A stretch of DNA of 64,000 nt from Microbacterium sp. SORGH_AS_0888 (lineage in GTDB: Bacteria; Actinomycetota; Actinomycetes; Actinomycetales; Microbacteriaceae). This document shows, in pieces, positions 35,587 through 40,249 of this stretch. The position numbers were made by a program, and so were the translations under genes. Position 1 is the first letter of the stretch; each line of letters starts with the position of its first letter. Below the pieces are notes generated by a model. It had not been told where the DNA came from. It ran no database searches and saw only the letters and a list, made by a program, of their open reading frames with translations. The DNA is taken from NCBI RefSeq assembly GCF_030818905.1, contig NZ_JAUTAZ010000001.1, positions 3,574,260 through 3,638,259 of the forward strand, given 5' to 3'.

Positions 35587-36732
35587 TCAGGCCGCCGCGG
35601 GGCGGCGCTGCGTGACGCCCAGGAGCGTCTCGATGGCGTCGGCGGCCCGCACCGCCGCCCGGCCATCGCCGTAGAGCTCCACGGCGCGGGACATCGAGGC
35701 GTGCACGGCGTCGTCGTCGAGGACCGAGGCCAGTGCCGCCGAGACGTTCGCACGGTCGGTCCCCACGAGCCGCGCCGCACCGGCCGCAAGCCCTTCGCCG
35801 CGCTCGGTCCGGTCCCGGGCCACGAGCACGGGGACCCCGAGCGCCGGCGCCTCCTCCTGCACGCCGCCGGAGTCCGTCACCACGCAGTGCGCACGGGCGA
35901 GCAGCCGCCCGAACTGCGCGTAGGGGAGGGCGTCGCACAGGACGACGCGCGGAGCACCCGCCACGGCTGCGCCGACCTCGCCGCGCACGAGCGGGTTCGG
36001 ATGCAGCGGGATCACGGCGACGGTGTCGGTGCGGGAGGCGATCGTGTCGGCGACGCCGCGGGTGACCTCGGCGAGCCCGCCGCCCCAGGACTCGCGCCGG
36101 TGCATCGTGACCAGGACGAGGCGCGGGTAGTGCTCGAGGGCGAGCTCGATCGCCGGGTCGTCGAACGGCTGCGGGTGCGCGCGCTGACGGTACAGGGCGT
36201 CGATCCCGGTGTTGCCGGTGACGACGACGTTCTCCGCCGGCACGCCTTCGGCCAACAGGTTGCCCGCCGCGAGATCCGTCGGGGCGAGGTGCAGCGAGGC
36301 GAGCGAGGTGATGAGCCGGCGGTTGCCCTCTTCCGGGAACGGCGAGAAGAGATCGCCCGATCGCAAGCCCGCCTCGAGGTGGATGACGAGCGCCTTGGCG
36401 TAGTGCGCCGCCACCGCGGCCAGCGCCGCGCTCGCCGTGTCGCCCTGGACGACGACGGCGTCCGGGGCGTCCCGGCTCCACCGCTCGGACAGCGCGGCGA
36501 AGATGCGCGGCGCCGTCTGGGCGAGGGTGCTGTCCGCACGGAACACGTCGAGGTCCGCGTCGGGACGGATGGCGAAGTAGTCGTTGACCTCATCCGTCAT
36601 GGCCCTGTGCTGACCCGTCACCGTGACGATCGTGTCGACCCCCTCGCGCGCGATCAGCTCCGCGACCAGCGGCGCGCACTTCACGGCCTCCGGACGGGTG
36701 CCGTAGACGATCTCGATCCGTGGGCGTGTCAC
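35587..36732 (-). CDS. wecB: UDP-N-acetylglucosamine 2-epimerase
   Basis: 381-residue non-hydrolysing epimerase that interconverts UDP-GlcNAc and UDP-ManNAc. Family segments are IVYGTRPEAVKCAPL, VTGQHRAM, VVVQGDTASA, HLEAGLRSGDL, FPEEGNRRL, LVTMHRRESWG, and VTDSGGVQEEAPALGVPVLV. It is the last gene of the exosortase locus and its GTG overlaps the exosortase stop by 4 nt. It probably supplies an activated amino sugar to the neighbouring glycosyltransferase. No UDP-ManNAc dehydrogenase is nearby. Confidence 0.92.
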   Translation of the reverse strand: MTRPRIEIVYGTRPEAVKCAPLVAELIAREGVDTIVTVTGQHRAMTDEVNDYFAIRPDADLDVFRADSTLAQTAPRIFAALSERWSRDAPDAVVVQGDTASAALAAVAAHYAKALVIHLEAGLRSGDLFSPFPEEGNRRLITSLASLHLAPTDLAAGNLLAEGVPAENVVVTGNTGIDALYRQRAHPQPFDDPAIELALEHYPRLVLVTMHRRESWGGGLAEVTRGVADTIASRTDTVAVIPLHPNPLVRGEVGAAVAGAPRVVLCDALPYAQFGRLLARAHCVVTDSGGVQEEAPALGVPVLVARDRTERGEGLAAGAARLVGTDRANVSAALASVLDDDAVHASMSRAVELYGDGRAAVRAADAIETLLGVTQRRPAAA

Positions 36733-37394
36733 CGTCGGGGTCTCCTTCCCTTGTCGTGGTGTGCTCGGCGTCCCTCGCGAGCGTGCAGGTCTCGGCGCAG
36801 CGCTCCCGGGGCGAGCTGAGGCGCCGGCGCGTCCGTGGCGCGGCGCTGCGCGCGGCGCGAGCGCGGCTCGCGGAGCGAGACCCGCAGGAACAGCACGATC
36901 GCGGCGATGAAGCCCGCGATGACGAAGAGCGAGCCGATGTAGCGGTGGACCAGGTCGAATCCGTCCATCCCGAACGCGGCGTACGCCCAGGCGGCGCCGG
37001 CGAACCGGATCACGTTGCAGGTCACCGCGAGTGCCAGCGCTCCCGCGAGCCCGGCGATGATCCGCGGCTGCGCCGTCCGGGCGAGCCCGGCCACCACGGC
37101 CGCGATGAGCAGCAGCGGCAGGATGAGCACCGTGGTCGAGCACATCGTCGTGATCGACAGGCCCGTCACCTCGCCGGTCCCGATGCCGAAGTAGACGATG
37201 GGGCCGGCGGCGCTCGCGCGACCCGGGGTGATCAGCCCGATGAGCAGGCGGGCGAGCTGGGCCTCGCCGTCGCGGACGCGCTCCTGGGCGAGCGCGAGCA
37301 GTCCGGCCGTCGCGAGCAGGGACAGGGACAGGGGGAGCCGCGATACGCCGCCCACACGGGTGCGGCGTATCGGCGCACCCGCGAGGACCGTCAT
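36729..37394 (-). CDS. Exosortase/archaeosortase-like membrane protease-transpeptidase
   Basis: 221-residue polytopic membrane protein with the exosortase order of conserved residues: Cys85 in TTMCSTTVLILPLLL, Arg130 in CNVIRFAGAAW, and His150 in DLVHRYIGSLFVIAGF, each at the start of a membrane helix. Exosortases cut C-terminal anchors of surface proteins and are thought to transfer them to another molecule. The tail of about 50 residues is basic and unlike the family. The ATG overlaps the glycosyltransferase stop (ATGA). The putative substrate is encoded at the start of the same operon. Family membership is clear in motif order but distant; the subclass cannot be given. Confidence 0.75.
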   Translation of the reverse strand: MTVLAGAPIRRTRVGGVSRLPLSLSLLATAGLLALAQERVRDGEAQLARLLIGLITPGRASAAGPIVYFGIGTGEVTGLSITTMCSTTVLILPLLLIAAVVAGLARTAQPRIIAGLAGALALAVTCNVIRFAGAAWAYAAFGMDGFDLVHRYIGSLFVIAGFIAAIVLFLRVSLREPRSRRAQRRATDAPAPQLAPGALRRDLHAREGRRAHHDKGRRPRR

Positions 37395-38749
37395 GTCTCC
37401 ACCGCCAGCAGCCGGCCGCCCACCTCGCCGTTGCGGCGGGTCTTCGCCCAGCCCCGCCGGCCCGCCAGCATACGGGCGAACGCCCTGACCACGCAGACGT
37501 AGCTCTGGTACATGTACAGCCAGTACCCCATTCCCCACAGCGCCGCCCTGCCCAGCGAATGACGCTCCTCTCGCCGCGCGTAGACGATCGGCCAGAGCGC
37601 GAACGGCACGATCCCGGTGAGCAGCCAGAGAGGGATCACCCACGCGGACGTCTCCATCCAGGCCATCAGGCTCCCGGTGGCGATGATCCCGTTCGTCAGC
37701 ACCGCGATGGCGACGGTCGGCCAGACGACGAGCCCGATCAGCTGGATGTAGGGGATCGCGAGGAAGTAGCAGGCCTCCAGCGCGCCCGCGTTGGTGAAGG
37801 TGCGGGATGTGAAGATCCGCGGCAGATAGCGCACGCACTGCAGGCCGCCCTGACACCACCTCGTGCGTTGCGTGAGCAGCCGTCGCGCCGACGGGAGCGC
37901 CTCCTGCGAGACGTGGGTGTCATGCGTGTAGACGGTGCGATACCCCGCGAGCATGATCCGCAGCCCCACCTCGTAGTCCTCGAGCAGGGCGTTCCCCCAG
38001 GGGGCGCTGCGCTCGGCGGAGGCGGCCTGCAGAGCGCTCAGCCGCGTGAACTGGCCGTTGCCGCCGAGCCCGACCGACACGGTCCGCATCCGCAGGCTCT
38101 GCATGGCCGCGATCGTGGTGCGGAACTCGATGTCCTGCATCCGCACGAGGTACCGCGCCCAGGCTCGGGCGACGCGACCGCGGCCCGGAAGGGGGTCCTC
38201 CGTGTTCGTCATCCGTACGGCGACCTGGACCGCGCCCACGTGCGGTGCGCCGAACGCCATCGGCCCGGCGGCCTGAGCCAGCGCGTTCGGCGCGAGGCTG
38301 CCGTCCGCGTCGAGGACGATCACGACCGTGCGATCGTCCTCGCGGCATGCCGTGCCCTTCTCGGCACGCCATCGCAGCAGTGCCGCGTATGCGGCGTTCA
38401 GTGCGGCGCCCTTTCCCTGCCGCGCCTCGGGCAGCCGCCGCAGGACCGCGTGGACGGAGGGATCCGCCGCGGCGATCTGCTCGACGATCCGTGCCGTGCC
38501 GTCCGTGCTGGCGTCGTCGATCACCCAGAGGTGCACACCGGGAAAGCGTGCCCGGGTGCGCGTCAGGGTGTCGTGCACGACGGCGGCCTCGTCGCGGCAC
38601 GGAATGAAGGCGTGCCACTCGAAGGCGCTCGCGTCCCCTTCCTCCGCCGGACGTCGGCGGAGGAAGGGGACGACGATGAGCGTCGTGTAGCACAGGAAGA
38701 GCACGAGCAGCACGAAGGAGAAGGAGAACAGCGGGTCGAGCGCGCTCAT
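37391..38749 (-). CDS. Processive family-2 glycosyltransferase (membrane)
   Basis: 452-residue GT2 enzyme with an N-terminal helix (FSFSFVLLVLFLCYTTLIVV), then a GT-A domain: HAFIPCRDEAAVVHDTL, VIDDASTDGT, VIVLDADGS, a catalytic Asp in ALLEDYEVGLR, and QRTRW (Q-x-x-R-W), which marks processive enzymes such as hyaluronan, chitin and cellulose synthases. Three to four C-terminal helices follow. It probably builds a beta-linked polymer or oligosaccharide from UDP-sugars at the membrane. The ATG at 38749 overlaps the small upstream gene and the stop overlaps the exosortase start. Confidence 0.87.
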   Translation of the reverse strand: MSALDPLFSFSFVLLVLFLCYTTLIVVPFLRRRPAEEGDASAFEWHAFIPCRDEAAVVHDTLTRTRARFPGVHLWVIDDASTDGTARIVEQIAAADPSVHAVLRRLPEARQGKGAALNAAYAALLRWRAEKGTACREDDRTVVIVLDADGSLAPNALAQAAGPMAFGAPHVGAVQVAVRMTNTEDPLPGRGRVARAWARYLVRMQDIEFRTTIAAMQSLRMRTVSVGLGGNGQFTRLSALQAASAERSAPWGNALLEDYEVGLRIMLAGYRTVYTHDTHVSQEALPSARRLLTQRTRWCQGGLQCVRYLPRIFTSRTFTNAGALEACYFLAIPYIQLIGLVVWPTVAIAVLTNGIIATGSLMAWMETSAWVIPLWLLTGIVPFALWPIVYARREERHSLGRAALWGMGYWLYMYQSYVCVVRAFARMLAGRRGWAKTRRNGEVGGRLLAVET

Positions 38750-38940
38750 CGCTCGACTCCTCCCGCCCCCGCGGGCTTCCGCGGCTCGACGCAGCGCCGG
38801 ACGTGGAGGGAGCGCCATACCATGAGCGCCCCGACGAACGCGGCGGCGACGCCGACGGTCACGATGGTGCCCACCGGTTCCGCGATGCCCGTCACCGCCA
38901 GTCCGCCGGCGACGCCGATCGCTCCTCCCGTTCGGTACAT
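38746..38940 (-). CDS. Small membrane protein of the exosortase locus (64 aa)
   Basis: MYRTGGAIGVAGGLAVTGIA leads a 64-residue protein with two closely spaced hydrophobic stretches (about 4-22 and 25-42) and a basic C-terminal tail. No family is recognised. It is tied tightly into the operon: the ATG is 4 nt after the stop of the anchored-protein gene, and its stop overlaps the glycosyltransferase ATG by ATGA. It may be a partner of the glycosyltransferase or of the exosortase. Confidence 0.65.
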   Translation of the reverse strand: MYRTGGAIGVAGGLAVTGIAEPVGTIVTVGVAAAFVGALMVWRSLHVRRCVEPRKPAGAGGVER

Positions 38941-38944
38941 GGAA

Positions 38945-40249
38945 TCAGCCCCGTGCCGTGCCGACGGTCCGAGCGCGGCGCCCACGCGCGACGAGGGCGG
39001 CGAGCACGAGCCCTGCCAGGACGACGAACCCGCCGATGAGGACGGCGGACTCGGGGCCGGCGATCGGCACGGCCAGCTGTCCGGCGTTCGGTCCGACCGT
39101 CGCGCTGGCGAGGTTCACGGCGGCGAGCGAACCCGACGGGCCGAGACCCACACGGAGCGCCGTCTGCGTGAACGACCCGTCCGATCCGGTCGACTGCACG
39201 TTGACCTGCAGCTGGGCGAGCGTTGTCAGCGCGTTCCCGAGCGGCGTCACCACCGTGCTGGTCAGCCCGTTGAGCACCGGCACGATGGTCGCGTTCGCGG
39301 TGGCGACGGCAGTCTCGAGGGCGACACCGGCGGCGAGGGTCAGGACGTTCTGCTTGAGCTGCGTGGCAAAGGCGCTCGCGGCGTTCAGCACCTGCTGCAC
39401 CTGCGCGGTGATCTTCTGCGCGATCGCGGTGGGCACGTAGGAGAGGAGGTCGGTTCCCGGTGGCAGGTCGTTGACGCTGGCGACGCCGGCCACGGCCGTG
39501 AGGTCATCGAGGGACAGCTCCACGGCTCCGCTGGCGAACGGGTTCGTCAGCCCGGCGCCGCTCGCGTTGGCGAGCGTGATCAGCGTGTTCAGCGCGGGGT
39601 TGATGACCCCGAGCGCGCCGGACACGATCGTCCCGTCGACGGTGAACCCGGCGTCGGAGAGCACGTACTGACCGGTCTGCGTGCCATCGGCGGCCTGCTG
39701 CGCCGATGCGGCGAGCACGCCCAGGTCCACCCGAAGACCCACGAGGTCGCTCGACGAGCCGAGTGCGAGGGAGGCGGTGTCTCCCGCGGTGGGCGATCCC
39801 ACGGAGGAGCCGGTCACGCTCGTGCCCACTCCGAGCAGGCTCGGCGCCGCCGAGACCGCGCCCGAGAACGCGGAGGAGCTCCCGTCGTCGCGGGCCTGGG
39901 CGTACTGACCGACCGCGCCCAGGCGGATGATCCCGTTGTCGCCGAAGAGGGCGGTGGATCCCGCGCTCAGCCCGATGAGGCCGGCGATCGCGGAGGCGTC
40001 CAGGGGCTGATCGACCGTGACATCGCCGCTGGCGTCCGGGTTGACCGCGACGGCGCCGCGCAGCGCGACGAGCGTGTCGAGCACGTTGGAGCTGAGCAGC
40101 GACGTCTCCACGAGGCGGCCCGTGCCCTGGGACACCACGGTCGCGGCGGAGGCGGACGCCGCCGGCACGATGAGGGCGGCCACGATCGCGGTGGCCGCGG
40201 CCGTCGAGGCAAGAGGGTGAGAGCGAGGGCGACTGATCTGTTTGGGCAC
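38945..40249 (-). CDS. Secreted choice-of-anchor G-type surface protein, probable exosortase substrate
   Basis: 434-residue exported protein. A signal peptide (PLASTAAATAIVAALIVPAA, cleavage after ASASA) is followed by a long Ala/Thr/Ser/Gly-rich ectodomain with almost no Cys. The C-terminal 40 residues start PIAGPESAVLIGG, then one membrane helix (FVVLAGLVLAALVA) and the basic tail RGRRARTVGTARG. That three-part end is a cell-surface sorting signal without LPxTG. The domain resembles the actinobacterial 'choice-of-anchor G' family. The GTG at 40249 (MPKQISRPRS) gives the signal peptide. It is the first gene of a five-gene unit with an exosortase-like gene. Confidence 0.78.
   Translation of the reverse strand: MPKQISRPRSHPLASTAAATAIVAALIVPAASASAATVVSQGTGRLVETSLLSSNVLDTLVALRGAVAVNPDASGDVTVDQPLDASAIAGLIGLSAGSTALFGDNGIIRLGAVGQYAQARDDGSSSAFSGAVSAAPSLLGVGTSVTGSSVGSPTAGDTASLALGSSSDLVGLRVDLGVLAASAQQAADGTQTGQYVLSDAGFTVDGTIVSGALGVINPALNTLITLANASGAGLTNPFASGAVELSLDDLTAVAGVASVNDLPPGTDLLSYVPTAIAQKITAQVQQVLNAASAFATQLKQNVLTLAAGVALETAVATANATIVPVLNGLTSTVVTPLGNALTTLAQLQVNVQSTGSDGSFTQTALRVGLGPSGSLAAVNLASATVGPNAGQLAVPIAGPESAVLIGGFVVLAGLVLAALVARGRRARTVGTARG

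Follow-up and report, generated by a model that had tools for sequence, protein, structure and literature searches.

A probable single-substrate exosortase S cassette in Microbacterium and a small protein that recurs beside actinobacterial exosortases

Archaeosortase A, the best-studied relative of the enzyme considered here, has been described as processing a tripartite C-terminal signal and attaching a lipid (PMC7157517), and the bacterial PEP-CTERM system has been reported to correlate with exopolysaccharide genes (PMC1569441). We have analysed a related locus of Microbacterium sp. SORGH_AS_0888, located in a stretch of 64,000 nucleotides (the window) that forms the terminal 64 kb of a single-contig 3.64-Mb genome. 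Its five minus-strand genes occupy positions 35587-40249 in the order ANC-SML-GT-XRT-EPI and encode a secreted choice-of-anchor G protein (ANC), a small membrane protein (SML), a glycosyltransferase (GT2), exosortase S (XrtS) and the epimerase WecB (Table 1). With a single exosortase, anchor-G protein and tail signal in the genome, we interpret the locus as a dedicated single-substrate exosortase S cassette that would act by the mechanism proposed below, with a probability of about 0.6. The families of the exosortase, the substrate and the GT2 are already curated in NCBIfam, and the cassette is a member of this curated kind. A preliminary description of the DNA had called such systems poorly described, which applies to the literature searched, where we have found no work on actinobacterial exosortases or their acceptors and, judged by title, none on exosortases S, R or P, but not to the three families themselves. 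What that description had overlooked is SML, a recurrent companion of several kinds of actinobacterial exosortases that is named in no library searched.

Exosortase S and its substrate

The exosortase exceeds the curated NCBIfam cut-off for exosortase S (NF033767, 191.4 bits against 145) as well as that of the Pfam family PF09721 (28.9 bits against 25.7), and ANC matches the choice-of-anchor G model (NF033766) with 132.8 bits at a cut-off of 45. Both assignments expected from the preliminary description have thereby been confirmed, and neither protein differs from the described pair of enzyme and substrate. Exosortases R (NF012138) and P (NF012139) possess the same compact catalytic domain, but the window enzyme stays far under their cut-offs with 69.5 bits against 150 and 58.5 bits against 200, respectively. 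The residues that had been singled out, Cys85, Arg130 and His150, are found at their places and are invariant in 22 of 22 aligned exosortase S sequences; the motif assigned to the GT2 is likewise present, as QRTRW. A structure model of the exosortase has reached a mean predicted local distance difference test score (pLDDT) of 72.1, with the segment preceding Cys85 below 50, and a sequence search has returned no solved structure related to the exosortase or the GT2. Exosortase S has been observed over the cut-off in 15 of 366 genomes of the genus, that of the window counted, and as a match at E 0.001 in 41, while a family-wide sample of 398 genomes has given 6 over the cut-off and 15 matches. 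Five further exosortases (L062, L075, L080, L086 and L151) score 84-97 bits against exosortase S, lie under all three cut-offs for S, R and P, and may represent one or more groups without a name.

For ANC, a tripartite C-terminal anchor had been proposed. The signal is present, but the GPE of the proposed "PIAGPE" is not conserved; across 16 aligned tails, the conserved part has been found to consist of VGPNAG...VP, a helix and RR, with no exchange in VGPNAG, in the P of VP or in one of the R residues. PVV-CTERM (NF051874) has been rejected as a name for this signal, as the match of 20.3 bits is under the cut-off of 27. A search of the genome with the tail signal has given one match at 66.9 bits, followed by the next at 14.6 bits (E 0.15), and genome searches have returned a single exosortase and a single anchor-G protein, in line with the single-substrate character suggested earlier. 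On this basis, ANC is presumed to be the sole substrate of exosortase S. Anchor-G matches have been found in none of 27 loci of other exosortases, and therefore this substrate goes with exosortase S. At the Pfam cut-offs neither ANC nor SML belongs to any family, and the structure model of ANC has a mean pLDDT of 49.7. Beside non-S exosortases, five loci (L077, L084, L087, L088 and L089) contain open reading frames (ORFs) of 217-262 amino acids that end in PxVP[VL].D...-helix-RRR and are candidate substrates of these neighbouring enzymes.

The GT2 exceeds the cut-off of the family named XrtP-associated glycosyltransferase (NF053846, 579.7 bits against 520) and matches PF13641. With the PgaC/IcaA poly-GlcNAc synthase (TIGR03937) it has the QxxRW GT2 type in common, although its 52 bits are far under the cut-off of 422.3. 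WecB matches TIGR00236 with 352.8 bits (cut-off 210.15) and, as the one match in the genome, is the sole copy; the Pfam scan agrees on the identities of both the GT2 and the epimerase.

The arrangement of the five genes, described at the outset as overlapping or nearly touching on one strand, has been recovered in full, with 4-nt overlaps between SML and GT2, GT2 and exosortase, and exosortase and epimerase, and a 4-nt gap between ANC and SML. Its conservation has been followed in every one of the 14 Microbacterium relatives that exceed the exosortase S cut-off and in seven loci from other genera, among them two (L060 and L061) that score 142-144 bits and hence fall just under this cut-off; the examined stretches leave aside four genomes of the genus with an XrtS match (G497, G517, G590 and G747). 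The order ANC-SML-GT-XRT-EPI is complete in 13 of the 14 Microbacterium relatives, the contig of the fourteenth (L074) stopping ahead of ANC, and ANC-SML-GT-XRT is retained in 7/7 loci of the other genera, as had been anticipated for a conserved system.

A small protein beside actinobacterial exosortases

The SML family follows a simple plan of MY, a Gly-rich linker, LAxTG, one helix and Arg. An ORF of 54-65 amino acids precedes the GT2 in the window and in 21 XrtS relatives (22/22 exosortase-S loci), and SML is also present in 22 of the 27 loci of more distant exosortases (seven from other genera, 20 from Microbacterium); the GT2, found in 26 of these 27, is at least as constant a companion. 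SML lies on the strand of the exosortase in 43/43 loci and on that of the GT2 in 42/43, often touching the latter. An alignment of 30 representatives (A1) is invariant at M1 and at R43 behind the helix and attains 90% conservation at Y2, L14, A15, T17 and G18, whereas the linker and the helix differ from row to row. Altogether, 49 members have been collected (44 from exosortase loci and five from a class sample), of which 47 start with MY and 46 carry [LIV][AP]xTG. The share of MY is partly given by construction, because the SMLs near other exosortases have been chosen by a pattern requiring M[YFWS] and the TG motif, and those of the XrtS loci by a rule accepting few start words; for comparison, Y occupies position 2 in 3 of 126 rough gene calls. 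In two loci (L149 and L152) an upstream GTG opens a longer frame, so that the MY start is assigned there rather than proven. Applied to 454,407 bases of reversed, uncomplemented sequence, the pattern has given no match, and on the real sequence five matches (L068 at 2290, L081 at 2356, L082 at 591 and 15751, L089 at 15419) have been discarded by eye as unrelated. The window SML reaches no family cut-off in NCBIfam or Pfam, and any Pfam family matches at most 4 of the 30 A1 rows at E 0.1. Basic residues are known to relate to membrane orientation by the positive-inside rule; in the 46 motif-bearing SMLs, Lys and Arg number 18 ahead of the motif against 259 after the helix, and therefore an N-out orientation is predicted.

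The association has also been seen in a sample of 236 genomes of the class, that of the window included, in which A1 and TIGR04178, the general exosortase model, have each been searched and which is independent of the A1 rows. Among the other 235 genomes, eight contain an exosortase and five an SML match at E 1e-6. Four of these five (G939, G813, G790 and G931) fall in exosortase genomes (hypergeometric P 2.8e-6), each with the match immediately ahead of the exosortase and on its strand; for G790 and G931, this match crosses a stop codon, the ORFs being intact with an MY start. The fifth match (G811) is weak, contains a stop and comes from a genome with no exosortase. In G899, a genome that is 68% complete and in which an assembly error is possible, the exosortase carries an SML-like MY..LPYTG segment as an in-frame fusion (L150:6614-7315, plus strand).

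SML matches of at least 49 bits occur in 34 genomes of the genus, and 34/34 of these are over the TIGR04178 cut-off; these scores are inflated, partly by construction, as the A1 rows have been taken from the same genomes. In total, 36 genus genomes are over this cut-off, the remaining two being G635, whose contig end truncates SML, and G610, in which no SML has been found. Next in score come G681, an exosortase genome, with a second SML copy at 41 bits, and G608, which is without an exosortase, at 39.4 bits. Weak A1 matches are common, being present at E 0.01 in 317 of 366 genomes, and five genomes that match exosortase S with only 22-38 bits (G605, G517, G591, G590 and G747) lack any SML match above 34 bits.

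Class E sortases of Actinobacteria are reported to recognise LAXTG (PMC5148588), and such a sortase is encoded in the genome of the window (227.5 bits, cut-off 160). By its motif, SML is similar to the signals of class E sortases, though it has no signal peptide, and it is a possible substrate of this enzyme. The LPXTG model TIGR01167 matches 13 of the 30 SML rows at E 0.1 and is exceeded at its cut-off by two of ten scanned SMLs, and NF058583 (LAXTG motif-containing small protein) matches 16 of 30 rows at E 0.1, with none of the ten reaching its cut-off (best 31 bits against 65); the window SML matches neither model at E 1. LAxTG, helix and basic tail are shared with NF058583 and LAXTG sorting signals, from which SML differs by the lack of a signal peptide and by a spacing of just 4-18 residues from position 2 to the motif. 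In two members, LAxTG is replaced by LPQTG and LPYTG. The second sortase-domain match of the genome (36.7 bits; L161:5420-5671, minus strand) reads MTARGG at the place where we presume the catalytic Cys to lie, and the protein may be inactive. Long proteins with LAxTG-type sortase tails (LAQTGGT, LASTGGE etc.) have been noticed near non-S exosortases in L075-L078, L081, L084 and L087-L089.

Chromosomal site and neighbouring genes

In the relatives, the cassette has been found at the same chromosomal site, flanked on one side by a gene for a PRD/PTS-EIIA regulator (13/13) and on the other by a phosphomannomutase gene (12/13), the contig of L071 ending before reaching the latter. No relative of the exosortase is encoded in plasmid records at E 1e-5; on this ground and that of the constant site, a mobile island has been rejected. 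A LuxR-type regulator is encoded divergently from the cassette, with homologues in the same position in 12 of 13 Microbacterium relatives, one of the 12 being partial at a contig end, and is a possible regulator of the cassette. A scan for promoters and terminators has revealed none exceeding chance.

Table 1. Positions of the cassette genes and of related features
Feature	Position	Strand	Basis
ANC, secreted choice-of-anchor G protein, 434 aa, C-terminal signal, helix and basic tail	38945..40249	-	NF033766, signal alignment
SML, membrane protein of 64 aa with MY..GG..LAVTG, a single helix and a basic tail	38746..38940	-	alignment A1, locus comparison
GT2 glycosyltransferase with QxxRW, "XrtP-associated glycosyltransferase"	37391..38749	-	NF053846; PF13641
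Exosortase S, 221 aa, Cys85/Arg130/His150	36729..37394	-	NF033767, conserved residues
WecB (EPI), non-hydrolysing UDP-GlcNAc 2-epimerase	35587..36732	-	TIGR00236
Divergent LuxR-type regulator, 806 aa	40470..42890	+	GerE domain; homologues beside relatives' cassettes
Small proteins MYN[DN]..LA[AM]TG adjoining another GT2	L154:8264-8431, L155:7962-8132, L156:8343-8516, L158:6829-6999		

Proposed mechanism and the role of the small protein

By analogy with the family, Cys85 of exosortase S would attack the C-terminal signal of secreted ANC near VP, release the helix with the basic tail, and hand ANC to an acceptor on the outer face of the membrane. With lower certainty, the GT2, supplied by the sole WecB, would build a glycan or glycolipid that belongs to the same surface structure, and SML would sit N-out in the membrane as a partner of both exosortase and GT2. 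Candidate acceptors would be a GT2-made glycolipid or glycan, a lipid alone, or SML.

Several observations weigh against this interpretation. SML is missing from 5 of the 27 other-exosortase loci (L063, L066, L068, L093 and L094), with the limit that phmmer has found no exosortase in L093 and that the exosortase of L094 reaches 21 bits only, and it has not been found in three of the eight exosortase genomes of the class sample (G765, G787 and G794). SML-like LAATG/LAMTG proteins adjoin another GT2 in G601, G476 and G608 and as the second copy in G681; of these GT2s, that of G601 has been scanned (PgaC_IcaA, 62.9 bits, under the cut-off), that of G476 matched, and those of G608 and G681 have been judged by eye from a similar C-terminus. 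No exosortase match has been found in G601, G476 and G608, and therefore SML may be tied to GT2 systems no less than to exosortases. In addition, WecB adjoins the exosortase in only one of the seven other-genus loci (L057) and, as the only copy of the genome, may serve other pathways.

For SML, the role of a companion subunit appears to us the likeliest, at slightly less than even odds. It would be a structural subunit of the GT2 or the exosortase, with the TG motif used for helix packing and no sortase action, comparable to the small partner proteins of PgaC/IcaA synthases. The position of SML on the strand of the GT2 in 42/43 loci, its frequent contact with the GT2, the SML-like proteins beside a PgaC-like GT2 in genomes without exosortase, and the lack of a match of the window SML to the LPXTG model at E 1 are consistent with this role. 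On the other hand, conservation is confined to the ends and the TG motif, with a variable linker and helix, a pattern more like that of a substrate than that of a subunit; LPQTG and LPYTG replace the motif as in sortase signals, and two of ten SMLs pass the LPXTG_anchor cut-off.

Rather unlikely in our estimate is the acceptor proposed in the preliminary description, by which the exosortase joins the new C-terminus of ANC to a GT2-made glycan or glycolipid derived from UDP-GlcNAc or UDP-ManNAc. A GT2 homologue is present in 21/21 ANC-bearing loci of the relatives and in 26/27 other-exosortase loci, and the reported lipid attachment by archaeosortase A (PMC7157517) and the exopolysaccharide genes accompanying PEP-CTERM systems (PMC1569441) point in the same direction, but the epimerase is not always adjacent. 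Still less probable is a separate surface polysaccharide as the product of the GT2 and WecB, with exosortase and substrate merely co-expressed, as the 4-nt overlaps among SML, GT2 and exosortase and the adjacency of the GT2 held across genera speak against it, even though WecB is the sole genome copy and non-adjacent in six of the seven other-genus loci.

Within the preferred reading of a dedicated exosortase S cassette, a bolder role can be formulated for SML, which we regard as quite improbable. SML would form the bridge in a relay of two transpeptidases, its conserved MY end serving as the nucleophile that receives ANC from exosortase S and its LAxTG end then being joined by the class E sortase to a cell-wall precursor. 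The idea is a natural one, because SML is in essence a flexible linker with a free N-terminus at one end and an LAxTG-like signal at the other. If true, the bridge would explain why the ends of SML are conserved whereas the linker ranges from 4 to 18 residues, and the relay would account for the anchoring of proteins to a Gram-positive wall by means of an exosortase. The window presents a minimal system of one enzyme, one substrate, one small protein and one GT2, and SML, as a tiny companion of several exosortase types with a sortase-like motif, makes the question of the acceptor cheaply testable.

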